Below, one piece after another: positions 3,092-34,647 of a stretch of DNA of 34,647 bases; the stretch's first letter is position 1, and each line of letters starts with the position of its first letter. This DNA is from a virus: IMG/VR virus record IMGVR_UViG_3300011113_000409, positions 1 through 34,647 of that record, one strand, 5' to 3'. The notes under the pieces are model-generated. The model saw nothing but the letters and a program-made list of their open reading frames with translations. It was not told the origin of the DNA and did no database searches. The translations under genes and the position numbers were made by a program.

Positions 3092-4264
3092 TCAAAAAGG
3101 AACATCAGGATCGGATGCAGCAACCTCCTTGTTGTCATTGGTGCTCATCTGTTCCACAGTCGTCTCCGCATCAATCTTGTTGTAGAGACTGACGAACGCG
3201 GTCTGCGTATCCTTGTCGAAGCGCGTGAGAGCGAGAGTGATTGCCTTTCGCTTGTTGCCGAACATCGCATACGCCTTGCAGATGTTGATGGCACGACGAG
3301 TCGAGATGATCTCGTCAACACCACCTTCCGCAAAGGTCTTGCGAATGATCTCAGTCCACTTGACGAGACAATCAGCGAAATTCTCGTCAATCTTGCCGAA
3401 CTTCTTCATCGCCTTGAGAAGAATCTTCTTCTCAGTCGCGCGAGGAGCGTAGTCCTGCTCGAAAGTGTAGTCGTAGCGGTCAAGTGCCGCCTCGTTCATC
3501 ACGCGAGTGCCGACGAAGCGACCATCATCCGAACCCTTGCCCTTGGTATTTGCAGTCGCAGCAACATTGAATCCATTGGCAGGAGAAACGAACTGACCAA
3601 TCTTCTTGAGGAAGACACCCTTACCCTCAAGAACAGGTTGCAGGCACATGCACTTCTCCGTGCCAAGATCGATCTCGTCAAGAAGAAGAATCGCACCACG
3701 CTTCATTGCGAGAATGACCGGACCATCCTGCCATTCCATGTTGCCGTTGACGAGTCGCCACGAACCGAGAAGTTCATCCTCATCTGTATCAGCAGTGATG
3801 TTGACACGGAAGCATTCGCGCTTCAACTTGGCACAGATCTGTTCGATCATCGTAGTCTTGCCGTTACCCGACAGACCAGTGACAAAGATCGGAGCAAAGA
3901 TGTTGCTCTTGATGATCGTTGTGATATCCTCACAGTGGCCCCAAGGAACATACTCAGGGTTGACATCAGGAATGATCGAAGTACGCTCGCCCTGCGTCGA
4001 TGCAGCGAGTGCGTAACACACGGAATTGGAAACGACGGGAGTTGTCATAGTCATGGTTGGATTTGACTTTGCGAGTTTAGTGTCGATGTAGAAATACCCA
4101 CGACCCGCGCTGCGAGTCTTGTCTTGGACAAACCACGCAGGAGGGTACTTGAGTCCGATGCTGTTCGCCGCTTCGACACATTGAGCGCGAGAAACAGTGT
4201 TCGATCCGTTTGCGATAGACTTGATTGCGTTGATGAATGCTGACTTGTTTGCGATCTTAGGCAT
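3092..4264 (-). CDS. cobS: MoxR/CobS-like AAA+ ATPase (390 aa)
   Basis: This is an AAA+ ATPase of the MoxR/CobS group. Residues 1-70 form an N-terminal domain with LKYPPAWFVQ and GRGYFYID. The P-loop is GLSGNGKTT at 130-138 and Walker B is ILLLDEID at 192-199. An ATA-NTKGKG segment (sensor 1) and a downstream RR motif (STRRAINICKAY, sensor 2 region) follow. T4-like marine cyanophages carry similar genes annotated cobS, the ATPase subunit of aerobic cobaltochelatase. MoxR ATPases generally work with a VWA-domain partner, and such a protein is encoded divergently at 4416. The class II RNR in this window would need B12, which fits a cobalamin role, but a general remodelling function is equally possible. 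Codon use is GC-rich compared with most genes here. A consensus promoter with a 3-base leader precedes it. Confidence 0.85.
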   Translation of the reverse strand: MPKIANKSAFINAIKSIANGSNTVSRAQCVEAANSIGLKYPPAWFVQDKTRSAGRGYFYIDTKLAKSNPTMTMTTPVVSNSVCYALAASTQGERTSIIPDVNPEYVPWGHCEDITTIIKSNIFAPIFVTGLSGNGKTTMIEQICAKLKRECFRVNITADTDEDELLGSWRLVNGNMEWQDGPVILAMKRGAILLLDEIDLGTEKCMCLQPVLEGKGVFLKKIGQFVSPANGFNVAATANTKGKGSDDGRFVGTRVMNEAALDRYDYTFEQDYAPRATEKKILLKAMKKFGKIDENFADCLVKWTEIIRKTFAEGGVDEIISTRRAINICKAYAMFGNKRKAITLALTRFDKDTQTAFVSLYNKIDAETTVEQMSTNDNKEVAASDPDVPF

Positions 4265-4273
4265 AGTGCGTAT

Positions 4274-4301
4274 ATTATACCAAAATATAAGTTCCTGTCA
4301 A
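4274..4301 (-). promoter_or_regulatory. Sigma70-like promoter for AAA+ ATPase gene
   Basis: On the minus strand TTGACA (4301-4296), a 16-base spacer, then TATAAT (4279-4274). The expected start near 4267 leaves only three bases before the ATG at 4264, and no ribosome binding site is possible. Confidence 0.75.
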
Positions 4302-4325
4302 TACCTTTTGTGTCATTTTTTGAAC

Positions 4326-4358
4326 TTATCGGACGGGTTGATAGTATTATTATCGGAC
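4326..4358. repeat. Operator-like direct repeat TTATCGGAC flanking TTGATAGTA
   Basis: TTATCGGAC occurs at 4326-4334 and 4350-4358 (24-bp period, close to two helical turns). TTGATAGTA sits between the copies at 4338-4346. The array lies between the two divergent promoters of the AAA+/VWA pair, so it is well placed to control both. It is inferred to be a regulator binding site. Confidence 0.5.
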
Positions 4359-4380
4359 TCAAAATATGGGATGTTTCGTA

Positions 4381-4409
4381 TTGACTCAAAGAATAAATTA
4401 TGGTATAAT
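4381..4409 (+). promoter_or_regulatory. Sigma70-like promoter for VWA-protease gene
   Basis: TTGACT (4381-4386), 17-base spacer, TATAAT (4404-4409). The expected start at about 4416 is the A of the ATG, predicting a leaderless mRNA. Confidence 0.8.
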
Positions 4410-4415
4410 AACGGT

Positions 4416-6725
4416 ATGTCTACCTCTAAGCAAAACAGCAAGTCGATTCTCGCTCGCGCACTCGCCACAGAAAATATTCGTGTTGAACACAGTCCCAATA
4501 CTTCGACTGCAATGTTCGATGTCGCAAATCGCGTTCTTGTTCTTCCCGTGTGGAAAGATATGAGTGACGAAGTGTACGACATGTTCGTCGGTCACGAAGT
4601 TGGTCACGCTCTATTCACTCCTGATATCGACAAGATGTTGAACAAGGTCACTAGTGGTCCTTGGTGTTCGGAAGCAGAGCGGATCGGTGGAACTGCACAT
4701 GCTTCGTATGTGCAGGGACTGATGAACATCGTCGAGGATGTTCGCATTGAGAAGATGATCAAGGATAAGTATCCGGGTCTTCGTCGCGACTTCTATGTCG
4801 GTTACAATGATCTCGAAAAGCGAGACTTCTTTGGTACGAAGGGAAAGAATCTCAATGAGTTTTCTTTCGCTGATCGTATCAATCTTCATTTCAAGTGTGG
4901 TGTATCTCTTGATGTTCCTTTCACCGATGAAGAGATGAAGTATGTCAATCTCATTGACTCTTGCAAGACCTTTGATGATGTCGTTCGTGCATCGGAAGAG
5001 GTCTATCGCTATCTTCGTGGTCAGAAGGAAGACAACAAGAATTCGGTGCAGACGAATGCAAATCCTGCTGCCATGAATTCTTCGACTGGAGAAAATGGAA
5101 ATGGTTCTTCTTCTCAGATGGTTACTGAAACTGTCTCGAACGAGAAGAGCGAAGATCCCAATGGCACTCCGATGCAATCGAATGGTGACAAGAAGCAGGA
5201 GAACAACTCCTCTTCGAAGTCGAACAATGGTGCAGGAACTGGTCTTGCTTCTGAACTTGACATTCAGACTCAGAAGAAGTTCAACGAGAATCAGAAGAGC
5301 ATGGTTGACACCAATGTCTCTAGTGTGAACTATTGTTCGTTCCGTCTTACGGATCATTCTCGCGTGATTCTCCCGTACAAGAAGGTCATTTCCACTCTTG
5401 AGAACTACTACAACCCTGCACGAGCCAACAACAGGCAATACTCTGAGGTCTTCTCTGCAATTGATGAGAAGTTTGCAAAGTTCACGCAGACGATGAAGCC
5501 TCTCATCAATACTCTCATCAAGCAGTTTGAGATGCGTAAGGCAGCGGATGTTCAGAAGCGTACTTCTGTTTCTCGCAGTGGCAAGATCGACGCAGACAAG
5601 ATCTACAAGTATCGCGTGAGCGATGATATCTTCCTTCGCTTCTCGCGAGTTGCCGATGGAAAGAATCACGGTCTTGTGATGTTCATCGACTGGTCTTCTT
5701 CGATGCAACCCGCAACCGAAGATGTTCTTGTTCAGGTTCTGATTCTGTCGAACTTCTGTCGTCGCATGTCGATTCCGTTTGATGTCTACATGTTTACGAG
5801 TCAGTACACCGTTCTTCGCGATCATCTTGGTTTTAGTACGAACGAAGACATGTGGAATGCTGATCTTAGGCAGTGGGTTGGAACGACTGACAATCATCAC
5901 CACAGCAAGTGGAACGGAATGATGAAGACTCACAACGATCACCGCGAAACATTTGCTCTGATTCAGATTCTTTCTTCCAACATGTCAATGAAGGAATTTG
6001 CAAGTGCTTCCAAGAATCTGTATACGATTGGTCAGATGATCACTCGTCCGGATGATGTCTTCAAGCAGAAGTATGTTCCGGGTCTTGTTCCTGATGGTTA
6101 TCGTCAGGGAAATACTCCACTTGATTCCACGATTGTCGCAGCAATGACGATTGTTCCTGAGTTTCGTGAGAAGCACAAGTTGCAAGTCGTGAATACGATC
6201 TTCCTCACGGATGGTGATACTGGCGGAAGTCCGCTTTATCATGCAAACATGAACAGTTACAACGCGAAGACTTATATTCGTTGTCCAATCACGAAGAAGG
6301 AGTTCTGCTTCAAGGATTCGGATACTACGAATGCTCTTCTTGAAATCTTCAAGCACAATACTCAGAGCACGACGATTGGATTCTTCGTGTGCTGTGGATC
6401 GTACTGCAAGTATTTCGAGGATTCAAAGCGAGATCGCAAGATTCTTCGTGACAATGGTTTCTACGAAGCACCGAAGGAGCGAAGCATTCTCGACTACACT
6501 GGAAATGTGAAGGCGAAGATCGTGAATCACGGATACGACAAGTTGTTTGTTCTTCCGTCTGAAATTGAGATTGATGACGAGTTTTCTGATCTCAACAATG
6601 TCGATACATCTGCAAGTCTCATCAAGATTCGCAATGCGTTCATGAACTCGCTCGACAAGCGCAGTGCGAGTCGTCTCTTCTTGAATCGGTTCGCAGATGT
6701 GATTGCGAATCCAAATACGAAGTAA
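4416..6725 (+). CDS. HEVGH metalloprotease-VWA domain protein, CobT-like (769 aa)
   Basis: Residues about 1-130 form a zinc metalloprotease-like domain with HEVGH at 60-64 and a downstream NIVEDVRIE segment (about 104-112) that could supply a further ligand. Residues about 210-300 are Ser/Asn/Glu-rich linker. A VWA domain follows, with the MIDAS motif DWSSS beginning at residue 425 (FIDWSSSMQP) and a TDGDTGG segment near 598. CobT and related VWA proteins partner with CobS/MoxR ATPases, and that ATPase gene is divergent at 4264. Marine T4-like phages carry comparable peptidase and cobS genes. The start at 4416 was preferred to the longer ORF because a perfect promoter sits directly before it and the upstream part covers the other gene's promoter. 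Codon use is GC-rich, as in the ATPase. The substrate is unknown. Confidence 0.85.
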   Translation: MSTSKQNSKSILARALATENIRVEHSPNTSTAMFDVANRVLVLPVWKDMSDEVYDMFVGHEVGHALFTPDIDKMLNKVTSGPWCSEAERIGGTAHASYVQGLMNIVEDVRIEKMIKDKYPGLRRDFYVGYNDLEKRDFFGTKGKNLNEFSFADRINLHFKCGVSLDVPFTDEEMKYVNLIDSCKTFDDVVRASEEVYRYLRGQKEDNKNSVQTNANPAAMNSSTGENGNGSSSQMVTETVSNEKSEDPNGTPMQSNGDKKQENNSSSKSNNGAGTGLASELDIQTQKKFNENQKSMVDTNVSSVNYCSFRLTDHSRVILPYKKVISTLENYYNPARANNRQYSEVFSAIDEKFAKFTQTMKPLINTLIKQFEMRKAADVQKRTSVSRSGKIDADKIYKYRVSDDIFLRFSRVADGKNHGLVMFIDWSSSMQPATEDVLVQVLILSNFCRRMSIPFDVYMFTSQYTVLRDHLGFSTNEDMWNADLRQWVGTTDNHHHSKWNGMMKTHNDHRETFALIQILSSNMSMKEFASASKNLYTIGQMITRPDDVFKQKYVPGLVPDGYRQGNTPLDSTIVAAMTIVPEFREKHKLQVVNTIFLTDGDTGGSPLYHANMNSYNAKTYIRCPITKKEFCFKDSDTTNALLEIFKHNTQSTTIGFFVCCGSYCKYFEDSKRDRKILRDNGFYEAPKERSILDYTGNVKAKIVNHGYDKLFVLPSEIEIDDEFSDLNNVDTSASLIKIRNAFMNSLDKRSASRLFLNRFADVIANPNTK

Positions 6726-7470: not shown

Positions 7471-8237
7471 AAACATTTAAAACATATTTGGAAGAAAGAA
7501 AATTGGCAACACTTGCAGCACTTGGTCTTGCTGGAGCAGCGATGGCAGCACCACCAAAACCAGAAGCAACACAAGCAATGGTTGACAAAATGAAAGAAAA
7601 AGAAGGTTTCAGACCAAAGGCAGAAATCGATAAGGATGTAAAAGGTCAAAAAAGAGTTGTGGTTGGTTATGGAACAACTGACACATACCCAGATACTGGA
7701 AAACCAATCAAAATTGGTGATACACTAACACCAGAACAAGGTGAGGAACAAATAAAAGCATTTTTCAATAAAATGACACCACAACTTGAAAAGATTCCAG
7801 ACTGGGATAATATGGATGCTGGAAAACAAGCAGCAATTATGAGTTTTGCTTATAATGTTGGACCTGGTTTCTATAAGTCAAAAGGATTTGAAACAATTTC
7901 TGGGCATCTAGAAAGAAAAGAGTGGGATAAAGTTCCAGATGCATTGAAACTATACAACAAAGCGGGGGGAAAGGTTCTTGGTGGTCTTGTCAAAAGAAGA
8001 GAAGAAGAAGGAAAGATGTGGTCGGAAGGACTTCCAACACAAACTCAAAAACAAGAAGCACCAAAGACAGAACCAGCTGCACAAAAACCAACAGGTGACT
8101 ACGAAGTAAAATCGGGTGATACACTCAGTGATATTGCAAAAAGACATGGTAAGAGTTTGCAAGATATAATAAAATCAAATCCACAGATCAAAGATCCAAA
8201 TACAATCAAACCCGGTCAAAAAGTAAAAGTTAATTAA
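7467..8237 (+). CDS. GH24-type lysozyme with C-terminal LysM (256 aa)
   Basis: This is a peptidoglycan muramidase of the T4 lysozyme family. EGF at 46-48 supplies the probable catalytic Glu, and VGYGTTD at 66-72 matches the conserved GYGxT stretch. FAYNVGPG follows in the helical half. After a Gln/Pro/Lys linker (about 185-210), a LysM domain (DYEVKSGDTLSDIAKRHGK onward, 211-256) would bind peptidoglycan. The N-terminus is ambiguous. MKTFKTYLEE looks like the capsid-targeting leader seen in its neighbours, while residues 11-28 (KLATLAALGLAGAAMA) look like a signal peptide or signal-arrest helix. It may be the endolysin or a packaged, entry-side lysozyme. Its start overlaps the preceding stop by ATGA. 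Confidence 0.9.
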   Translation: MKTFKTYLEERKLATLAALGLAGAAMAAPPKPEATQAMVDKMKEKEGFRPKAEIDKDVKGQKRVVVGYGTTDTYPDTGKPIKIGDTLTPEQGEEQIKAFFNKMTPQLEKIPDWDNMDAGKQAAIMSFAYNVGPGFYKSKGFETISGHLERKEWDKVPDALKLYNKAGGKVLGGLVKRREEEGKMWSEGLPTQTQKQEAPKTEPAAQKPTGDYEVKSGDTLSDIAKRHGKSLQDIIKSNPQIKDPNTIKPGQKVKVN

Positions 8238-8238
8238 T

Positions 8239-8787
8239 ATGCATAAAGAAGTATTTCAATCTCTACACGAATCAATCAGGAAAAGAAATACTCCGGATCA
8301 TTATGTTATTGATTCATCTCCCAGAAGGGATGTAATTCATCGTGGATATTTGCGAGGAGATGTTGAGTTTCCTATGAGATATGATTTTATTCCTGATGGT
8401 TCTACATATAAAAATTCAGGAAGACATGTATATCACTTTAGAGATGGCGATAATTCTGGTGTTATAGAAATTATGCACACATATTCACCAACGAGTGATG
8501 GACATGAGACTACTAGTGTGCTTTCTTTTGAAAAATTAAGTGGATCTCTTCCAGAAATAAACATTCATAGACTTTTAATTCCAACTCTTAATCACCATAT
8601 CAAATCACACGATCCGGATATTATCAAATTTTCAGATGGAATTCCATTCCCCGATGACATGATAAGTAGACTTGGATCTAAATTTGATAATTTTGAAAAT
8701 AAAATGGTAAAGAAAAAAATAGATCCAAAAATTACCCGAATATTATCTCACATCAAAAATAAACTAAATACTACTAAGGAGAATTAA
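8239..8787 (+). CDS. Hypothetical protein (182 aa)
   Basis: Family not recognised. It begins MHKEVFQSLHESIRKR, a leader-like stretch with LHE-S as a possible prohead protease site. The body has mixed strands and helices, a His/Tyr/Asp-rich first half (YVIDSSPRRDVIHRGYL, HVYHFRDGDNSGVIEI) and a Lys-rich C-terminal helix. There is no membrane segment or cysteine motif. It starts one base after the lysozyme stop, so it is cotranscribed with it. Likely an accessory virion protein. Confidence 0.7.
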   Translation: MHKEVFQSLHESIRKRNTPDHYVIDSSPRRDVIHRGYLRGDVEFPMRYDFIPDGSTYKNSGRHVYHFRDGDNSGVIEIMHTYSPTSDGHETTSVLSFEKLSGSLPEINIHRLLIPTLNHHIKSHDPDIIKFSDGIPFPDDMISRLGSKFDNFENKMVKKKIDPKITRILSHIKNKLNTTKEN

Positions 8788-25685: not shown

Positions 25686-27602
25686 TTATGTAGTCAGATC
25701 TACAAGTTCGCATTTGTCACCACTACATGCGAATGTTTGAGTTCCAACAGTCTTGTCTTCTTTCTCATAATTTTTGAGTAGAGTCCAATCGACATTCTTT
25801 GGCATTTGTTCAAGTGCCTTTTCATACTCTTCCTTGGAACAATCCTGATATGGTGCTTGACGATATGAGTGATCGGAATGAGGTAAAAATGAAATACCTG
25901 AGATCTCATCAAAGTGCTTATATACAAACGCTCCAACTTCCATCCATTCATGTTCCTTGACAGTAACAGTAATTGATGGTTTATGTTCACACCAATGACG
26001 CTGATAAGTCAACCACAATTCTAGATGTTCAATTGCTGTAAGATCATTTCGTGTTACTGAACCTTCTGCCTTCATTGGGAAAGAAAAAACCATGGTGTGG
26101 TCTGGTTTCATAACACAAGGTTCCGCAGGGAATCCCATATCAATCATCATCTGACAAAGAGGATCTTTGCGATCTGCACGAACTGTGCGAATGTAATATT
26201 CATTGTGGCGAGCATGAATACCAGATGCAGCATCTGTCAATTGAGATACAGTGCCACTTGGTTTGATACAAGTGATTGCTGCTGCTGGATTAATTCCAAT
26301 AATATTCGCCCACTCTTTATTAACTTCGACTGCTAATTCTTTGAGATTGATAAGAGTATTTGGAATATCCTGTGTACTTCTCATCATTTTGTTATCAAGA
26401 ATTCCAGTTAACGAAACACCTAATAGTGCTTCTTCAGTGCAATTCTTCTTCCACTCGGATGAGAGATATGGGAAATGAGTCAATGATGCTTGCCATGTTC
26501 CTAGAATTGTAGCAAGTCTTACTTTACGACGAAGAGACTCTAGAGTATCTTCAGGACGAACTACAACTTCTGTAAGGTTGCAAAACTGACGATCACGAAG
26601 AATAATTTCACTGCAAGGATTTGTACCAAACTCATAGGATGCATCACGACGATCACCAAGTTTAGATACAGTTCTTCTACAAGCATCACGGTTGAAAATA
26701 CCACGCTCTCCACTCTTTGACTTGTAGAGTGAAACCCATTCGTCCATGAATACGCCTATTTCTGGTTTTTCTTTATACGCGACCGAGTTGTTCGCGAGCG
26801 CGCGTTGCGGGTTTTCATTCCACCATGCTCCTGACTTGGCATCTCGCATTCTTTCATCTGTGAGATTGGATAGGCTAATAAGAGCAGATCTACGGACTCC
26901 TCCCACCACGACAATTTCTGCAATCTTGCAGACAATATCGTGACATTCAATGGATGTGAGCTTTCTCCCTGCCGATCTTTTAAAAGTATCAATGGTGAAT
27001 TTGAAAAGATCTTCGAGAGGTCTTGGTCCACTTGCTCTCCCACCGAAAGTTTTGAGGCGAGCCCCAGCAGGACGAACCTTTGATAAGTCCCACTTTGGAA
27101 TCTGACCTCCAATGAGTAAGGAGATAAGTTCTTTGTAAGCCTTAGCCCAACCAGCCTTACTATCTTCAACAATAATTGTGGTATCGCTAGGACTAAAGTT
27201 TTCAGCGACTGTAGGAAGTTTTTCAACATATTGTCTCTCCACCGAAAATCCTACACCAGTTCCACACATGAGAATGTATAGGATTTCATCAAACGCTCTT
27301 ACGCGGTTAATTGCAACATAAGAGCAATTATATCCTGCTGTATTATCTCTCTTCAATGCATCCCCGGCCGTCATGAGTGATCGCATGGAAGGCATGATTT
27401 CTAGATTCAAAACTGCATCTTTCAATTCCTGACGCAATTCTGGTTGCAAATTATAATTCAATTGTGTTAGATGTTCATCGAAGAATTTAAAATAACGCTC
27501 CACGGTTTCTTCCCATGTCTCACGACGCTTTTCTTTCTCAATCCAGCGAGCGTATCTGGATGTGTGTATAAACTTCTGATAATCAGATGGTAAATCTTTC
27601 AT
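25686..27602 (-). CDS. nrdJ: Class II (adenosylcobalamin-dependent) ribonucleotide reductase (638 aa)
   Basis: Monomeric RTPR-type reductase that makes deoxynucleotides from ribonucleotides using B12. Seen: AGYNCSYVA (first active-site Cys), GTGVGFSVER, NPCSEIILRDRQFCNLTEV (thiyl Cys and the second redox Cys, ten residues apart), PSGTVSQLTDAASGIH, and the C-terminal shuttle pair CSGDKCEL seven residues from the end. It is somewhat shorter than the Lactobacillus enzyme (about 740 aa), but all catalytic cysteines are present. Cyanophages and other marine phages use this class. It comes last in the minus-strand replication operon, 22 bases after thyX, with AAGGAG before its ATG. The CobS-like ATPase in this window may relate to its B12 need. 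Confidence 0.95.
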   Translation of the reverse strand: MKDLPSDYQKFIHTSRYARWIEKEKRRETWEETVERYFKFFDEHLTQLNYNLQPELRQELKDAVLNLEIMPSMRSLMTAGDALKRDNTAGYNCSYVAINRVRAFDEILYILMCGTGVGFSVERQYVEKLPTVAENFSPSDTTIIVEDSKAGWAKAYKELISLLIGGQIPKWDLSKVRPAGARLKTFGGRASGPRPLEDLFKFTIDTFKRSAGRKLTSIECHDIVCKIAEIVVVGGVRRSALISLSNLTDERMRDAKSGAWWNENPQRALANNSVAYKEKPEIGVFMDEWVSLYKSKSGERGIFNRDACRRTVSKLGDRRDASYEFGTNPCSEIILRDRQFCNLTEVVVRPEDTLESLRRKVRLATILGTWQASLTHFPYLSSEWKKNCTEEALLGVSLTGILDNKMMRSTQDIPNTLINLKELAVEVNKEWANIIGINPAAAITCIKPSGTVSQLTDAASGIHARHNEYYIRTVRADRKDPLCQMMIDMGFPAEPCVMKPDHTMVFSFPMKAEGSVTRNDLTAIEHLELWLTYQRHWCEHKPSITVTVKEHEWMEVGAFVYKHFDEISGISFLPHSDHSYRQAPYQDCSKEEYEKALEQMPKNVDWTLLKNYEKEDKTVGTQTFACSGDKCELVDLTT

Positions 27603-27623: not shown

Positions 27624-28325
27624 TTATGTATTCGCTGTCAGTAGACTCCAAGATTCATAAAACAAAGGTTCAATTATTTCTCCAATTGCCTTTGCATATT
27701 CTTGAACTTCCCACTGTGCATGAGGATCTGTTCTTTGTTTGTATACTCTTGCATAAGCAGAAAGAGAACCAGTCCACCACCACTCGGTATATACACCTTG
27801 TGGTAAAATAAATCTTGCTTGCTCTGGTGCAACTCCTGCTTCTAGAAGTTGGTCATAAACTTCAATCGCTTGTTTTGCATTTTCACGATAGATTCTGTCA
27901 ACATGTTCTTTTGCTCTAGGATCTGTGATGAAATCTTCCGATCCTTGCTTTGCACCATTTGTTGGTTTGCTACGAAAAAATGGATAATAAAGATCTGGTT
28001 CATATGAAACATATCTTCGTGAAATTTCATTCTCAACGAACCCAACCTTGTGTTTGAAAAGTTGTGTACGAATAGAAATTGGTGCTTTAATTCTCAAAGT
28101 TATTGAGGTATGTGCAAATGGAGTCCAGTGTTGGTGTTTTGCAAGATACTGAATTAACTTTGAATCTTTTGCTGAGAGATGACCAACACCATCATGATCA
28201 ACTTCTTCCCAAGTGCTTTCTTTATTAAACGAAACTCTTGCTGCATTTACAATTGACAAGTCTGAACCCATATGATCAACATATTCAACAAACCCCGCAT
28301 CAAGAACATTCTTTCTGTTGTTCAT
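27624..28325 (-). CDS. thyX: Flavin-dependent thymidylate synthase ThyX (233 aa)
   Basis: Makes dTMP from dUMP with FAD, NADPH and methylene-THF. The signature RHRxxSxNExSxRY is present in variant form, KHKVGFVENEISRRYV, with Lys replacing the first Arg and Val-Gly-Phe in the middle. The start AGFVEYVDHMGSDLSIVNAARVSF and the C-terminal SLSAYARVYKQRTDPHAQWE are standard for the family. Its ATG overlaps the stop of the upstream 171-aa gene (ATGA), with AAGGAG as ribosome binding site. Together with the RNR it supplies DNA precursors; fits a host or phage that lacks ThyA. Confidence 0.95.
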   Translation of the reverse strand: MNNRKNVLDAGFVEYVDHMGSDLSIVNAARVSFNKESTWEEVDHDGVGHLSAKDSKLIQYLAKHQHWTPFAHTSITLRIKAPISIRTQLFKHKVGFVENEISRRYVSYEPDLYYPFFRSKPTNGAKQGSEDFITDPRAKEHVDRIYRENAKQAIEVYDQLLEAGVAPEQARFILPQGVYTEWWWTGSLSAYARVYKQRTDPHAQWEVQEYAKAIGEIIEPLFYESWSLLTANT

Positions 28326-28837
28326 TTAAACTCCTTCAAAAAATCACTAGTATCACCAAGATTCTTCTTTATTTGTTCAATTGCAAATTCAATAAACTTT
28401 GGATCATCTGTGATATATTTGCAAACTTTGACAAAGTTACTCCAATCAGTTGTATCAAAATTTTCATATGACAAACTACGGGCATGATGAATAAAATTTG
28501 CAAGATAATTCTTCATTCCAAGAAGATCATCCTTTTGAGTCTTCTTCTTTTTCATCCAAATTTCTTTTGCTTCGTCCTCATTTCCAACCTTGTTAACTAG
28601 ACGATTAAAACTAGACTCAGTCTTAACAAGAGTCCTGAGAAGTTCATCTAAGAACTTTTTATTATCTTCATGCCAATAGTCGAAAACAATTCCATTGTCA
28701 TTCTTTGCATATGTCTTGGCATAATCAACTGCTCTATAAAATAAATCACGATCTGTCTCGCGAATATATTCACTAAACTTAAAATGAAATTCTACCATGC
28801 TGGTAAGAAGTAAAAAATCTTTCTCTGAAATCTTCAT
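28322..28837 (-). CDS. Hypothetical helical protein between primase and thyX (171 aa)
   Basis: Family not recognised. The start at 28837 is chosen because its ATG overlaps the primase stop (ATGA), with GGAG about nine bases upstream. ATG at 28843 or 28852 is possible, but the latter would put the GGAG inside the gene. The protein is almost all helical and charged (FKFSEYIRETDRDLFYRAVD, KKTQKDDLLGMKNYLANFI). It has no cysteine motif or membrane segment. Its place inside the replication operon suggests a role in replication or nucleotide supply. Confidence 0.75.
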   Translation of the reverse strand: MKISEKDFLLLTSMVEFHFKFSEYIRETDRDLFYRAVDYAKTYAKNDNGIVFDYWHEDNKKFLDELLRTLVKTESSFNRLVNKVGNEDEAKEIWMKKKKTQKDDLLGMKNYLANFIHHARSLSYENFDTTDWSNFVKVCKYITDDPKFIEFAIEQIKKNLGDTSDFLKEFK

Positions 28838-29829
28838 TGGCATTTTCTCCATGAATTAAATGCTAAAAGTGCAGAAGCATTTTGATGTGTGTTATTACCT
28901 ATTATAACAAGTGGATCCAGATCATTCAATACCATATCATTTATATCCTTTTCTTTTATATGATCTGGATAAATGCATATTTTTTCGCCGCGGTCGATGA
29001 GTTCTCTATAAATTTTCACTATCTCTTTATTTCTTGGTTCATTGTCCAATACGAAAATCAAATCTTGAGTTGGAAATGTCTTTCTAATTTCTAGAAAATT
29101 TCCTGAACCAAGACAAGCAATTGCATTGGGTAGGAAGAGACTGTCGATTGGACCCTCCACAACAAAGATACGCTTGCTCAAATTAACAGTATTCAGTCCA
29201 TAAATTAGTCTTGTTTTTTCATTTCTTTTCAGAGTTATATACTTTGGTTTTATATTTTCCAAAGATCTACCCTGAGCACCTATAAGTTGATTGTGCTCAT
29301 CGTAAATTGGAATTATTATTCTTTCGTCTTCAATTAAAGAATAATCTGAATTTATATTTTTTGCATATGTACCAAATGTTTTGGTGTATTTAAATTTATC
29401 CCAGTGCTGCTTTGGTATTTTTCTAGACTGTAGAAAATGAATTGCCTTATGTGTCTCTTCTAGATCAGAAATAAATTCTGACGAATCAACAATCATACTA
29501 GTGATATTTTGTTTTTCTTCTACCACTATAGATTCATGTTTTGGTCTTTCATTTTTCTCCATAAACTTTTCAAGAGAGTATTGCTTAAAAAGAACAGGAG
29601 AAACTATTTCCAAAAATTTGTAGATGTTATGTGATGCACCACAATTATGACATTTGAAAAAGTAAGTATTTTCTGATTGAAAGAAATAACCTCTCGCTTT
29701 ATTCTTGTTTACTTCAGAATCTCCACAAATTGGACATCTACAATTTGCAAGATTAATCTTCTTCCATTTGAATTTTTGAAGAGAAGAAGAAACAAGATTA
29801 ATATACTTTTGATCAAGATACAGACTCAT
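28834..29829 (-). CDS. 61: T4 gp61-type DNA primase (331 aa)
   Basis: Synthesises RNA primers for lagging-strand replication. The N-terminal zinc finger has CPIC (32-35) and CHNC (60-63). The TOPRIM fold follows: FVVEGPIDSLFLPNAIACLGSG provides the catalytic Glu and GPIDS, and DLIFVLDNEPRNKEI the acidic strand. The start at 29829 ([10 protein letters not shown]) overlaps the helicase stop by one base (TGATG). The length matches the T4 primase family. It acts with the gp41 helicase encoded immediately upstream. Confidence 0.93.
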   Translation of the reverse strand: MSLYLDQKYINLVSSSLQKFKWKKINLANCRCPICGDSEVNKNKARGYFFQSENTYFFKCHNCGASHNIYKFLEIVSPVLFKQYSLEKFMEKNERPKHESIVVEEKQNITSMIVDSSEFISDLEETHKAIHFLQSRKIPKQHWDKFKYTKTFGTYAKNINSDYSLIEDERIIIPIYDEHNQLIGAQGRSLENIKPKYITLKRNEKTRLIYGLNTVNLSKRIFVVEGPIDSLFLPNAIACLGSGNFLEIRKTFPTQDLIFVLDNEPRNKEIVKIYRELIDRGEKICIYPDHIKEKDINDMVLNDLDPLVIIGNNTHQNASALLAFNSWRKCQ

Positions 29830-31199
29830 CAGAAATTCCAATTTTCAAACTTAAAGTTTTTATTTTCTTTTGGTTGTTGCTTTGGTTGCGAAGTGGGAAT
29901 CACAAGCGCATCATCTTTCTTGATGTCAAACACTTTCATCTTCGCACGATTAATTCCAAGAATAAACTTTCTATTCACTGCTGTATCATTATATCGATTC
30001 TTGAGTTGCTTGACCATTATTTGGTTCATCTCTGCCAGTTCTTCGGTAGAGATCAATGCAAACATGAAATCAGCAGTAGCAGGAAGACCAAACGACTCAG
30101 ATGTGTCTTCCAATCCCACATCAGAGTTTGAATATCCGGATCTTGTAGTTTGTGTTGCACTGAAAATTGGTACATTATATTCAACCGCGAGTCCACGAAG
30201 TTCTTCAGCAATAGACTTGATGTATGTATAACTGTTTATGTTATTTCCATTCTTTAAACGAGCAGATGCACATATATTCAAATAATCGATGAAGATAACA
30301 TCTGGTTTAAACTTTCTCTTTAACCAAAGTTCATCAAGTAGAAATCTAAAGTGATTTACATTTGCTGTTGCGGTAGGATATTCTTTGATGATAAGTTTTC
30401 CAGTTACACCAGCACTCAGATTTTGCATTCTCTTTTCATAAACTGTCTTTGGAAGTTCCTTCAGGTTATCAAGAGTGATGTCTAATAGATTTGCATCTAT
30501 TCTTTCAGCAATTCTTTCTTCTGCCATCTCACAAGTAATATACAAAACATTTGAATTTTGTTTCAGACAATTCGCGGCATGGTGGCAAAGAAATAATGAC
30601 TTACCAACACCAGTTCCTGCCATGACGATATTGAGTGTCTTAGCAGGAGTTCCACCATTTGTGATTTGATTAAAGAAGTCCAAGTCAAATGGAACTTTCT
30701 TTTCAACTGTATGATAAAATTCGTAACGCTGTTCATAATCTTCAATGTAGTCATGTCCGATATGTACATCAAAGGAAACAGCAAGTGCTTTTGATAAAAT
30801 ATCAGGGATTGCTCCTTGACTATTTTGAGATTTTCCATCAATGATGGAAATAGATTCCATAATTGCATTATAAACTGCCTTTTCTTTGCAGAATGTTTCT
30901 GTCTCTGCAAATAACCATTCCATATCACACGATTCCTTACTGTTTGAAATTTCCTCAACAATATTGGAAACGCGCTTTAGTTCATCCTGTGTGATTGATT
31001 TATTTTTATCAAGAATAATATACAGTGCCTCTTTTGTGGGCAAGTTATTATACTTCAAAATAAAATCATGAATGCTCTCAAAAACAAATCTTACAGATCT
31101 GTCATGAAAATACTCCCTCTTGAGGAAGGGAGTAACTTTTCGTGAGTATGGTTCATTTTTGAGAAGACTGTGTAGTATTAGTTTTTCGATATCCGTCAT
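29829..31199 (-). CDS. 41: T4 gp41-type replicative DNA helicase (456 aa)
   Basis: A DnaB-like hexameric 5'-3' helicase. The N-terminal domain ([18 protein letters not shown]) is followed by the RecA-like core with Walker A GTGVGKS ([19 protein letters not shown]), Walker [10 protein letters not shown], and [13 protein letters not shown] (DnaB motif 3, Gln and Thr/Arg). Length and order are typical of gp41. Its ATG overlaps the UvsX stop (ATGA), and its stop overlaps the primase start, so the three are translationally coupled. Confidence 0.95.
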
Positions 31200-32239
31200 T
31201 CTTCATCCTCAGTTTTGGTTTCTCCACCATAACTGAACTTATTATACACTGCTTTATCGATCTGGTCAAGTATGTCTTTGGTAAAATACTTTTCAGGATT
31301 ATCATAGATCGTTTTTTCAAAAACTTTTGACCCATCTGACAATTCAATACGAGTAGAATTCTTCTTGAATATTCCTGCCTCTACAGCAATATCGACAAGA
31401 CCATAATATGGATCAATACCCGTATCATAATTCAGACGAATATCAACCATGCTGTTTTCTTTTGTAAATCTACCCTTGTAAAGTTTAGCATGAATAATAT
31501 TTCCAACAACTTCACCATCTGAATTCTTATCCTTCTTCTTTGAAAGATAAACAATCGTAGATGCTGCGTATTTAAGACCAGTACCACCACCCATTTCAGA
31601 CATTGGAACATATGCACCAACTACTTGATATGTGTGATTGGTCATGATCATTGGAATCTTTGCCACTCCGAGTTTAACAGTAAGAACACGGAATGTTGAC
31701 TTTACAATCTGCGCGCGAGTCATGTCGCGTGTTTCCTTTCCTTCAGCAGTGTCATTCATCTCCTTCGATGTTGACAACATGCCAAGAGAATCAAGAACAA
31801 TCATTGTTGGTTTGCGACTCTCTTGTGGAAGTTCAAGTACCTTGTCAACGATTGTAATTGCTTGGTGTCTGAATTCCTCAATGGTTGCAACAGGAAAAAC
31901 TGCAACACGCTTTGGATCAATACCTCGACTCTTGAACATCTCAGAAGTAACTGCTTGTTCTGAATCAAAGTAAAGAACGACTGCTTCTGGATTATCTCGT
32001 AAAAACTTTGAAACAATACCTAGTGTAAAATAGGTCTTACCTGTAGATGACTCTCCAGCAAGTGCTAGAATCTTATTGTTCGGAAGACCCGAATAAATGC
32101 TTGCACTTAGAAGTCCATTGAAAAGATAACAACCAGTGTCAACAAATCCTGCAACATCACTGCCATCCAATCCTTCAGAAACGAGAGAAGCATATTTGTT
32201 TCCTGAAGATTTAACCATAGAAGATAAAAAATCACTCAT
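31196..32239 (-). CDS. uvsX: UvsX RecA-like recombinase (347 aa)
   Basis: Strand-exchange protein for recombination-dependent replication and repair. Walker A is GESSTGKT at 62-69 and Walker [24 protein letters not shown] then [17 protein letters not shown] gives the RecA-core strands and loop 2. The start at 32239 ([10 protein letters not shown]) has AAAGGA upstream; the longer ORF start lies ahead of that site and overlaps the polymerase gene. It ends in an acidic tail (GETKTEDEE), as RecA proteins do. Confidence 0.95.
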
Positions 32240-32249
32240 AATATTTCCT

Positions 32250-33365
32250 TTACCCAAATAGGGATTCTAATGTATTTTTCTTTTCAGTTGACCATCCTAT
32301 AGTATCTAGGATTGTAGTCAATGGATCTATAAAAGATTTTTCAAATTGCATTTTGTAATCAATAAATTCATGCAATCCAAATTCTTTTGGTAAAATATTT
32401 GGAAAAGAAATAATTTGATCTTCACCACGAATACCACCAAGTGGATTTGGTTTCTTCAAATGAAGATACTTGATCTTATCTCCTTCAATTATTTTTTTGT
32501 ACTTTTTATTAATTTTATATTTTTCGATATAGTGGTTGTAAATCAAAGAACCTTTTACAGCAATTGGTGTCGATTTCTTATAGATTGTAGCACGATCAGC
32601 ATACTTATCCATACCATTTACACTACGAGGAAATGCAATTTCCTCTGGACTTAAGGAAAAGAATTGCTTTTTACATTTTTCAACAAAAGTAACCATATCA
32701 CTCTCATTGCCATTCATTGTAATATGAATTGCATCTTTGAGATATTTTCTAACACATTCTGGTGTTGAACTACGAGTAGTTTCAATTCCCATAATCTTAA
32801 GTTTTGGTTCTACATATCGAACACCTTCAGAGTCCCATACATTAAGCATGTATCTTTTCTTTGCAGTCCAAATTCCCTTGTCTGCAATAACTTCTCGACC
32901 CATCTGCATCTTATTCTCATAAGCATTCATGATGGAGGCAAGTTCTTTAAACTTTTTGTCGATGAACGGCAAGATTGCGTCGATTGAAGATTTATCGATA
33001 AAATTTACAATCTTGGTTTTATCAGTCGTATTTGGCATTACTTTTTGTACAAGTGGTCCAAGATTCAAATAAACAGAGTCAGTATCAGATGCGATCACAT
33101 AATCAATATCTTTAGTTCCGACAATCTTGTTTAAATAATTATTTAGTTCTTGACCAATCCATTGAATAGACAACTGACCCGACAGAGTGATTGCCTCTGC
33201 GAGTTCAGTTGAATAATATCTAAAATATTCGTTTCCAATTGCCCCGTAAGCAGAATTCAATTGAATTTTTCTTACTAACTGGAAATTATGGTATTTGGAA
33301 ATTTCTAATTCATATTGTTTACGGAGAGATAGCAATTCTTCCGTAGATAACTTTGAATAATTCAT
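32250..33365 (-). CDS. 43: DNA polymerase gp43, C-terminal part of a split family B polymerase (371 aa)
   Basis: This covers only the fingers/palm end and thumb of a T4-type polymerase. Motif B is [20 protein letters not shown] (about residues 32-50), motif C is [10 protein letters not shown], then [10 protein letters not shown] (KKRY motif) and [14 protein letters not shown]. It ends ESLFG, like the clamp-binding SLDFLFG tail of T4 gp43. The 3'-5' exonuclease and motif A (the first catalytic Asp) are absent, and the ORF begins cleanly with its own start, so the missing part must be a separate gene outside the window. A promoter (TTGACT-N16-TACAAT) sits directly before its ATG, supporting expression as a separate subunit. 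A stop lies upstream in the 119-aa gene, so a single frameshift is not the explanation. Confidence 0.9.
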
Positions 33366-33372
33366 AAGTCAC

Positions 33373-33400
33373 ATTGTATCAAAAATTAATGAAGAGTCAA
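33373..33400 (-). promoter_or_regulatory. Sigma70-like promoter for split polymerase gene
   Basis: On the minus strand TTGACT (33400-33395), 16-base spacer, TACAAT (33378-33373). The expected start is about 33366, one base before the ATG. There is no Shine-Dalgarno, so the mRNA is predicted leaderless. It overlaps the 3' end of the preceding gene. Confidence 0.65.
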
Positions 33401-33745
33401 GAGATACTTTGTTGTATTGATGATTGCTAGCATCTCATCACGAATATTTAAAAGATCAGAGTCTTTATCTTCAGACAAACTCTGTGGTAATTCATTGAGC
33501 AAAAAGTTTTCAAAATACTTCAAAACGGGCATTGGATGTGCAGCTTCATATCCGAGTAACTCAATTGTTCTATTTTGTTCAGTATCCTTACCATACTTGC
33601 CCATGTAAGTTTCAACAAAAGAGTCAATTAGTGGATCTAGTGCTTCGTATGCTTTTCCAAGTGCTTTATGTTCAGCAAAGGAAGGTGTTTGCCAGTGATG
33701 AATTCTTAATTGATTTTGAAGGGTTAAAAACTTTTCGATATGCAT
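33386..33745 (-). CDS. Small helical phage protein, Dps/ferritin-like bundle (119 aa)
   Basis: The N-terminal helix NQLRIHHWQTPSFAEHKALG and the next (YEALDPLIDSFVETYMG) resemble Dps proteins (HWxxxGPxFxxxHxxxxxxY, then DxxxExxx). The pattern matches a small phage family I believe is DUF5856. It probably forms a four-helix bundle; whether it binds iron cannot be told. AGGAG precedes its ATG. In the early replication operon it may be a structural or regulatory accessory protein. Confidence 0.8.
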   Translation of the reverse strand: MHIEKFLTLQNQLRIHHWQTPSFAEHKALGKAYEALDPLIDSFVETYMGKYGKDTEQNRTIELLGYEAAHPMPVLKYFENFLLNELPQSLSEDKDSDLLNIRDEMLAIINTTKYLLTLH

Positions 33746-33761
33746 ATTATTCTCCTATACT

Positions 33762-34007
33762 TTATATAGAAGACTTCCAAACACCATCTAGAATGACTCC
33801 ATAATCTGGAACATCATCTGGAGATACCTTTTCTACGCTGTAACATTGACTAATTTTCATCGCAGTCCTGAGTCTATTTAATATTTCACATTCAGTAACT
33901 GCATTTGATTTCTTCTTGAATACAAGAATACCCTTACGGGGTTCTCCCGAAGGGTCTTTAATATTATCAGAAACAAAGTTTTTGGTTCCAGTTACAATTC
34001 CGTACAT
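33762..34007 (-). CDS. Small early hypothetical protein (81 aa)
   Basis: Unrecognised alpha/beta protein (MYGIVTGTKNFV, KGILVFKKKSNAVTECEIL). The start at 34007 forms a TAATG overlap with the preceding gene's stop and has GGGATGG upstream, which is better spaced than the ATG at 34016. It is probably part of a cluster of early takeover genes. Confidence 0.7.
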   Translation of the reverse strand: MYGIVTGTKNFVSDNIKDPSGEPRKGILVFKKKSNAVTECEILNRLRTAMKISQCYSVEKVSPDDVPDYGVILDGVWKSSI

Positions 34008-34270
34008 TAAAACCATCCCTTTTTCTTCTCAGGACAATTGAAGACGATACAAGAAGGTCGAGTCCATTCGTAGCGCATTACCCCATAGTAGTCTAGAACC
34101 ACTACACGACACACATACATTGGCATGACAATTGTTCCACTCTCCCATTGCTTTTTAAAGAGATCAGACAACTTACTGATTTCTTCCTCGTCATCGCCCG
34201 TGTATTCAGAGTCGATATGGATCAGGAACTTCAGGTTGCTCATTTCTTGTTTCTTTTGTGCTTCAGTCAT
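34007..34270 (-). CDS. Small early hypothetical protein (87 aa)
   Basis: Unrecognised. An acidic N-terminal half (HIDSEYTGDDEEEISKLSD) is followed by a strand-rich half with two Cys (MYVCRVVVLDYYGV, SCIVFNCPEKKKGW). The start at 34270 gives ATGA overlap with the preceding gene. No motif identifies a function. Confidence 0.7.
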   Translation of the reverse strand: MTEAQKKQEMSNLKFLIHIDSEYTGDDEEEISKLSDLFKKQWESGTIVMPMYVCRVVVLDYYGVMRYEWTRPSCIVFNCPEKKKGWF

Positions 34271-34563
34271 ACCACTATCCATCCCTTCTCTTTGGTCAGG
34301 TACTTGAACAGTTCTCTTCCTACTGGGCGACTCATCGTTCTGAACTCACCTCTCCTCAATGTGATCTGTGGAAACTTCATCACATATTCATCATCTCCGT
34401 ATCCTGGGATGATTGTGACTCCAACCATATCGGTATCAACATCATCAGACCAACAGAAATGGACTTCGTCAAGGGATGGGAGATGTCTCACAACACACGA
34501 CTTTTCCCAATTCAATTCCAACGGAGATGTATCTGGAATGTATGGATCACCGTAGCGTTTCAT
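34267..34563 (-). CDS. Small early hypothetical protein (98 aa)
   Basis: Unrecognised. A Trp/Asp-rich beta-type protein (CVVRHLPSLDEVHFCWSDD, MVGVTIIPGYGDDEYVM) ending in a basic helix and the hydrophobic IVV. GGAG lies nine bases before the ATG. The ATG overlaps the stop of the preceding PEP-CTERM-tailed gene (ATGA), so the two are translationally coupled. Confidence 0.7.
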   Translation of the reverse strand: MKRYGDPYIPDTSPLELNWEKSCVVRHLPSLDEVHFCWSDDVDTDMVGVTIIPGYGDDEYVMKFPQITLRRGEFRTMSRPVGRELFKYLTKEKGWIVV

Positions 34564-34647
34564 CGTCTTCTCCGAACACCAATCATACCAGCAATCCCGA
34601 TCAGCGCAAGTGCCGATGGTACAGGAACAACCGTGTAGTCGATGTTG
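34560..34647 (-). CDS. Partial gene: PEP-CTERM-type C-terminus
   Basis: Only the last 28 codons lie in the window; the gene continues beyond the right edge. The end reads VPVPSALALIGIAGM, then IGV and four Arg before the stop. This has the three parts of a PEP-CTERM sorting signal: a VPxP motif, a short hydrophobic helix of about 14 residues and a terminal Arg cluster. Such tails are recognised by exosortases in many planctomycetes, Verrucomicrobia and Gram-negatives that export to the surface. Its stop overlaps the next phage gene's start, so it belongs to the phage operon. The rest of the protein is unknown. A chance hydrophobic tail is the main alternative. Confidence 0.6.
   Translation of the reverse strand, partial: NIDYTVVPVPSALALIGIAGMIGVRRRR

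Follow-up and report, generated by a model that had tools for sequence, protein, structure and literature searches.

PEP-CTERM sorting signals in uncultured T4-like phages suggest viral use of a host exosortase

Introduction

Why would a virus encode a protein that ends in the sorting signal of a bacterial surface system? Descriptions of PEP-CTERM sorting present it as a system of bacterial surfaces and biofilms. The question is raised by a viral stretch of 34,647 nucleotides (IMG/VR record IMGVR_UViG_3300011113_000409, positions 1 to 34,647; hereafter the window), whose right end holds the last codons of a gene that an earlier note on this DNA had read as an exosortase target. The exosortase (EpsH) sorting model is represented by TIGR02595 and PF07589 for the tails and by PF09721 for the enzyme (PMC1569441). 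The proteins described here resemble the substrates of that system in having a signal peptide, a variable body, a PxP motif, a hydrophobic helix and an arginine-rich end, but differ in that they are encoded in T4-like phage genomes, that one clade has several families of them and that the same records hold no exosortase. Within the open-licence papers in PMC, we found no description of phage-encoded PEP-CTERM proteins or viral exosortase substrates. What is new here is a known sorting signal in an unexpected carrier, uncultured T4-like phages, which appear to display their own proteins on infected cells.

A PEP-CTERM tail at the edge of a phage contig

The 3' end of the gene (28 codons and the stop; 34560-34647, minus strand) lies in a frame that is open to the right end of the window and translates to NIDYTVVPVPSALALIGIAGMIGVRRRR followed by the stop, with the C-terminal end VPVPSALALIGIAGMIGVRRRR. 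In profile searches, the best matches of this tail were to PEP-CTERM models and not to sorting models of other kinds; it scored 21.6 bits with TIGR02595 (curated cut-off 16) and 22.3 bits with PF07589 (curated cut-off 20.7). The exosortase-type tail that the earlier note had seen in the VPxP motif, hydrophobic helix and RRRR was thus borne out by both curated cut-offs, and a TIGR02595 search of 14 control genomes returned zero matches. As the same tail recurs in the relatives L004, L069, L189 and L045 at 85-92% DNA identity (89.6% for the window fragment against the full-length L004 gene), the frame is real. A looser PEP-CTERM regular expression gave ∼30 matches in 1.0 Mb of clade sequence, in which some contigs were entered twice, compared with ∼1 per Mb in a shuffled-base control, and nearly all of the matches terminate long open frames or frames at contig edges. 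Judged by its sequence, the fragment codes for the sorting signal at the C-terminus of a predicted phage-encoded PEP-CTERM protein, and the signal itself is well supported.

The stop codon of the gene (TGA, 34562-34560) overlaps the start of the next gene (ATG at 34563) in an ATGA (34560-34563, minus strand), as seen in the sequence and in the junction alignment. This downstream gene of 98 codons (34267-34563), coupled translationally and kept in the related contigs L002-L004, has no match in NCBIfam or Pfam. On the same strand follow two small genes, of 91 aa (34007-34282) and 84 aa (33762-34016; conserved beside PolB_C in many relatives), a DUF5856 protein of 119 aa (33386-33745; PF19174, E 8.9e-18), the C-terminal half of a split, gp43-like family-B DNA polymerase (32250-33365; PF00136, E 2.5e-10), a UvsX/RecA-like recombinase (31196-32257; RecA-family match 2.3e-17, syntenic in relatives), a gp41-like replicative helicase (29829-31199; from its position and the conserved UvsX-helicase-primase order in relatives), a gp61-like DNA primase (28834-29841), the thymidylate synthase ThyX (27624-28325; TIGR02170, 138 bits, cut-off 87.9) and an adenosylcobalamin-dependent ribonucleotide reductase (25686-27602). 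The reductase is assigned to class II (RTPR type) by synteny, by PDB 1l1l (E 5e-49) and by TIGR02505, with 303 bits (E 4e-90) under the equivalog cut-off of 340. Translational coupling to phage genes, also claimed in the earlier note, holds with this stop/start overlap, and the gene lies within the polymerase-UvsX-helicase-primase block.

The conserved PolB-UvsX-helicase-primase block places the window among T4-like phages related to cyanophages. The clade resembles cyanophage-type T4-like phages (Prochlorococcus phage P-HM2, Synechococcus phages) in this block, with 54-56% identity to cyanophage gp43 for the polymerase half and 43% to a cyanophage primase, but is unlike them in its split polymerase, whose N-terminal half is a separate upstream gene in L003, its cargo of TrmH, tRNA and small genes, its class II reductase and its PEP-CTERM genes. 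The GC content around the PEP-CTERM gene (44-52%) exceeds that of the phage core, as would be the case if pieces of host genome had been misassigned as viral. Yet many independent contigs have the gene in the midst of PolB, UvsX, helicase, primase, ThyX and reductase genes, and phages that are 99% identical differ in whether they carry it; we give misassignment next to no weight.

A complete gene, gained or lost as a single-ORF cassette

As the window copy is cut at the edge, its own N-terminus and body are read from homologues. Searching with the downstream 98-aa gene, we found three related contigs (L002, L003 and L004). The syntenic phage L004 carries a complete gene of 215 aa (MTKTLIATTLLATSAQGAI...VPAPSALALIGIAGMIGVRRKR), composed of a signal peptide, a body of ∼170 aa and the same tail as the window; this tail scored 15.9 bits with TIGR02595 in the protein scan and 20.4 bits in the genome search (cut-off 16). 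The reading of the earlier note would have been contradicted by a full gene without a signal peptide and with a plain membrane tail, or by a score at background; what L004 encodes is a signal peptide and the same tail, and signal peptides are likewise present in the other full-length homologues. Most proteins of the block are ∼99% identical between the window and L002 or L003, yet these two contigs have no PEP-CTERM ORF: the junction alignment shows that the upstream 186-aa gene joins the 98-aa gene directly through ATGA. In L004, the ORF sits exactly between two such overlaps, one at each flank. The ATGA on both flanks together with the clean absence from L002 and L003 indicates a cassette that is gained or lost as a single ORF. 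Because the gene is missing from these two contigs and also from the same slot in L046-L050, it is dispensable.

Two unrelated families of putatively secreted phage proteins under purifying selection

Searches with the L004 gene and with the family alignment retrieved about 25 contigs in IMG/VR carrying this family, here called family A. All full-length homologues have a signal peptide, as judged by inspection of the hydrophobic region and the -3/-1 residues; complete members start with a short basic segment and a hydrophobic stretch, followed by a small-residue cleavage site of the A-X-A type (for example, TSAHA^EL and AAHA^NL) or by TAAHG. All complete members end in PxPSALALL..AG..GRRRR or near variants. 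The bodies diverge to 46% identity around an invariant block, W.YYD...GYD.G..GDRA..TP.G...RI.R...W, and dN/dS values of ∼0.25 for the family and of 0.22 (median) for the body indicate purifying selection. In most contigs with readable surroundings, a TrmH-like methylase and a tRNA cluster precede the gene and/or the C-terminal polymerase half follows it; a few copies lie elsewhere (for example, in L200). In L206 (4756-4866), a signal peptide is fused in frame onto a PEP-CTERM tail with the body deleted, leaving a remnant gene. Full-length family A had no tblastn match in 50,697 INPHARED records and no meaningful match in PHROGs, and a search of 298 genomes of the candidate host class turned up no cellular counterpart of its body. 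The tail alone also had no tblastn match in INPHARED, an uninformative result as the query is short and of low complexity.

A second family, family C (DFIVVNNPVVDTVGFYSDAF..., tail APAPGAIALLGMAGLMGRRRR), was found on 19 contigs, three of which also carry family A. Its signal peptides end in ANA^DF, AMA^DF or SASA^EF, its dN/dS is ∼0.14 (medians of 0.11 for the body and 0.14 for the tail), and its TIGR02595 score is 14.2 bits (cut-off 16). In L054, L148 (the same contig), L153, L158 and L159, it stands directly behind the B12-dependent ribonucleotide reductase. When families A and C were compared with hhalign, only the tails aligned, and nothing remained once these were removed. A tblastn search of the 50,697 INPHARED records gave only chance matches for family C, and sequence searches of solved structures gave nothing significant for either family. 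The regular-expression scan of the 1.0 Mb of clade sequence yielded further, different PEP-CTERM proteins, and a fourth type occurs in two more distant records, L091 and L092 (DLVNGGFEDF..., tail IPSPGAIGLLAIASLVSSRRRV). Matches of family D to 'Listeria phage' entries were rejected, as they trace to an LPXTG-type protein in UNVERIFIED records. Overall, TIGR02595 scored above its cut-off in 13 of the 50 phage records and matched at E 0.05 in 20 of them; the L039 group, with 13.2 bits, is under the cut-off of 16. With at least two independent phage families that have intact signals and evolve under purifying selection, these data suggest that viruses exploit the exosortase.

A hydrophobic helix followed by arginines is also a common type of plain C-terminal membrane anchor, and the members that score under the TIGR02595 cut-off might be taken to mean that the likeness to PEP-CTERM is superficial. 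We consider this very unlikely, as the combination of signal peptide, PxP, helix and arginine run is repeated in the unrelated families A, C and D, as the window tail prefers PEP-CTERM models to other sorting models, and as the cellular homologues of family C, described below, are PEP-CTERM proteins of exosortase-bearing genomes.

Candidate hosts and their exosortases

The exosortase (PF09721) was detected in 0 of the 50 phage records, most of which are fragments. Family A gave only two matches in a scan of the genome collection, both in Planctomycetota (one in a Phycisphaeraceae) and solely via the tail region. Family C was matched over nearly its full length (E 7e-16 and 8e-14) in genomes that belong to the class of G002, the second of these two matches. 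We take this class to be Phycisphaerae, on which its tails and the Phycisphaeraceae match agree. Even with the tails removed, family C aligned with the Phycisphaerae proteins across 154 columns at 31% identity (E 1.5e-18, probability 99.1%). These homologues (L133-L139) are like family C in nearly the whole protein, at ∼30-37% identity, and in the type of tail. They are unlike it in being chromosomal and of high GC, whereas the phage copies sit in AT-rich genomes and often lie behind the ribonucleotide reductase. Read by eye, their neighbours are of the kind usual on a chromosome, with a dihydropteroate synthase-like frame in L133, for example, and a glycosyltransferase-like one in L134. In two genomes (G272 and G227), an exosortase lies ∼3.5 kb away. 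The family C profile found no match at E 1e-8 in 294 Planctomycetota genomes, although known positives give E 5e-20 to 9e-6, indicating that close homologues are rare.

Exosortase was present in 10 of 10 tested genomes that hold family C homologues and in each of the 12 candidate host genomes examined, the hosts themselves being predicted; the exosortase that the earlier note had expected in candidate hosts is thus found there and in none of the phage records. Together with the homologues, this points to Phycisphaerae (Planctomycetota) as the probable host in a comparison of exosortase-bearing genomes within that phylum. The GC content of the phage core (30-36%) against that of the Phycisphaerae homologue loci (63-72%) counts against this assignment, whereas the phage tRNAs, which mostly read A-ending codons, fit an AT-rich phage in a GC-rich host. 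A polymerase search found phages of the clade absent from 397 genomes of the candidate host class, which is a weak test of the host.

Substrates supplied by a phage could also act as decoys, one of the examples given in the earlier note, flooding the exosortase so that normal matrix or envelope assembly halts, with the body of little importance. The several substrate families, the enzyme not being found in phage records and the L206 remnant, which retains only signal peptide and tail, would all suit a decoy. However, the bodies are the most constrained part of the proteins (dN/dS 0.11-0.22), with the invariant aromatic and acidic block in family A, and a pure decoy would need no conserved body, making this explanation improbable.

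A predicted jelly roll and the vitamin B12 idea

The structural model of family A (mean pLDDT 73.9, pTM 0.75) consists of a beta domain followed by one C-terminal helix; that of family C is unusable (pLDDT 49). The best structural matches of the family A model were DUF4465 jelly rolls (Z 12.5, rmsd 3.2 Å over 159 residues), followed by other jelly rolls, many of them carbohydrate-binding, at Z about 10. A viral fold library returned only generic tail-fibre and carbohydrate-binding jelly rolls. DUF4465 proteins (BtuJ1/J2) bind vitamin B12 (PMC13398666), and the predicted fold in a phage with a B12-dependent reductase makes capture of B12 a tempting idea.

More generally, a displayed jelly roll might serve the infected cell by binding a glycan or a nutrient, such as B12 for the reductase that the phage encodes. 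This is consistent with the predicted closeness of the family A model to DUF4465, with the AdoCbl type of the reductase and the position of family C immediately after it in several contigs, and with the PEP-CTERM tails found on DUF4465 proteins from the G002 class. The likeness is confined to the predicted fold, however. Family A had no Pfam match to PF14717 (DUF4465) at E up to 1, and comparison with DUF4465 proteins of the class of G002 reached an hhalign probability of 1.2% and an HMM E of 0.03 at best. The TPxYF motif of the B12-binding HI loop (TPAYF) is absent from family A, whose domain reads SSHLAIDN, SNQIAIDN or similar at the equivalent end. Suggested by the fold but by neither profile similarity nor motif, binding of B12 by family A is improbable, and with carbohydrate-binding jelly rolls at Z about 10 and no usable model for family C, ligand capture as a purpose appears doubtful at best. 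That phages with a B12-dependent reductase use the host exosortase to display ligand-capturing, possibly cobamide-binding, jelly rolls as a viral nutrient-scavenging surface is a long shot.

A model for remodelling of the infected cell surface

We consider it quite likely, from the sequence evidence above, that these phages supply the host exosortase with secreted PEP-CTERM proteins, thereby remodelling the surface of the infected cell. In this model, which follows the sorting scheme of PMC1569441, the PEP-CTERM gene would be expressed along with the replication block, and the host Sec system would export the product by way of its signal peptide. The tail would then keep the protein anchored in the inner membrane, its VPxP motif facing the periplasm, where the host exosortase would cleave it and hand the predicted beta-jelly-roll domain to the surface or the exopolysaccharide layer. 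The phage would contribute the substrate only, and its own ligand-like proteins would end up on the infected cell; we infer both the processing by exosortase and the surface location. The location among replication genes would imply expression before virion assembly and hence a protein that acts on the cell and not within the virion. As to purpose, masking or remodelling of the surface, which would block superinfecting phages (superinfection exclusion being another example from the earlier note), is our tentative first choice, followed by effects on adhesion or the matrix, which we hold to be possible but rather unlikely.

These phages point to a group of uncultured T4-like viruses that probably infect Planctomycetes, for which, to our knowledge, few phages are known. 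They also give handles on exosortase function and on the remodelling of host surfaces by phages.

Further features of the phages and candidate hosts

Most of the DUF4465 proteins in genomes of the class of G002 (L167-L186) end in a PEP-CTERM-like tail, which suggests that Planctomycetota may have exosortase-anchored B12 binders. On the phage side, the DNA polymerase is split across the clade (window 32250-33365; L003 3-458; L189 1830-11017), with the halves ∼6 kb apart and separated by a TrmH-like methylase, tRNAs, an HNH endonuclease and small genes. The GC content of this cargo region is ∼44-52% (window 33900-34647; L003 2000-5500; L004 1-2500), compared with 30-36% for the neighbouring replication genes. 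An (R)xxGWDCFK/YK motif near the C-terminus is common to several small coiled-coil proteins, apparently paralogues, that the cargo region encodes (L003 3049-5017; L054 7074-7328). Near the PEP-CTERM gene of relatives, L013 encodes a D-isomer 2-hydroxyacid dehydrogenase and a calcineurin-like phosphoesterase (7749-8768 and 3891-4643). Another phage contig, L007, carries a permuted tmRNA-like gene (8036-8470) for which ARAGORN gives the tag AAPMRRAA.
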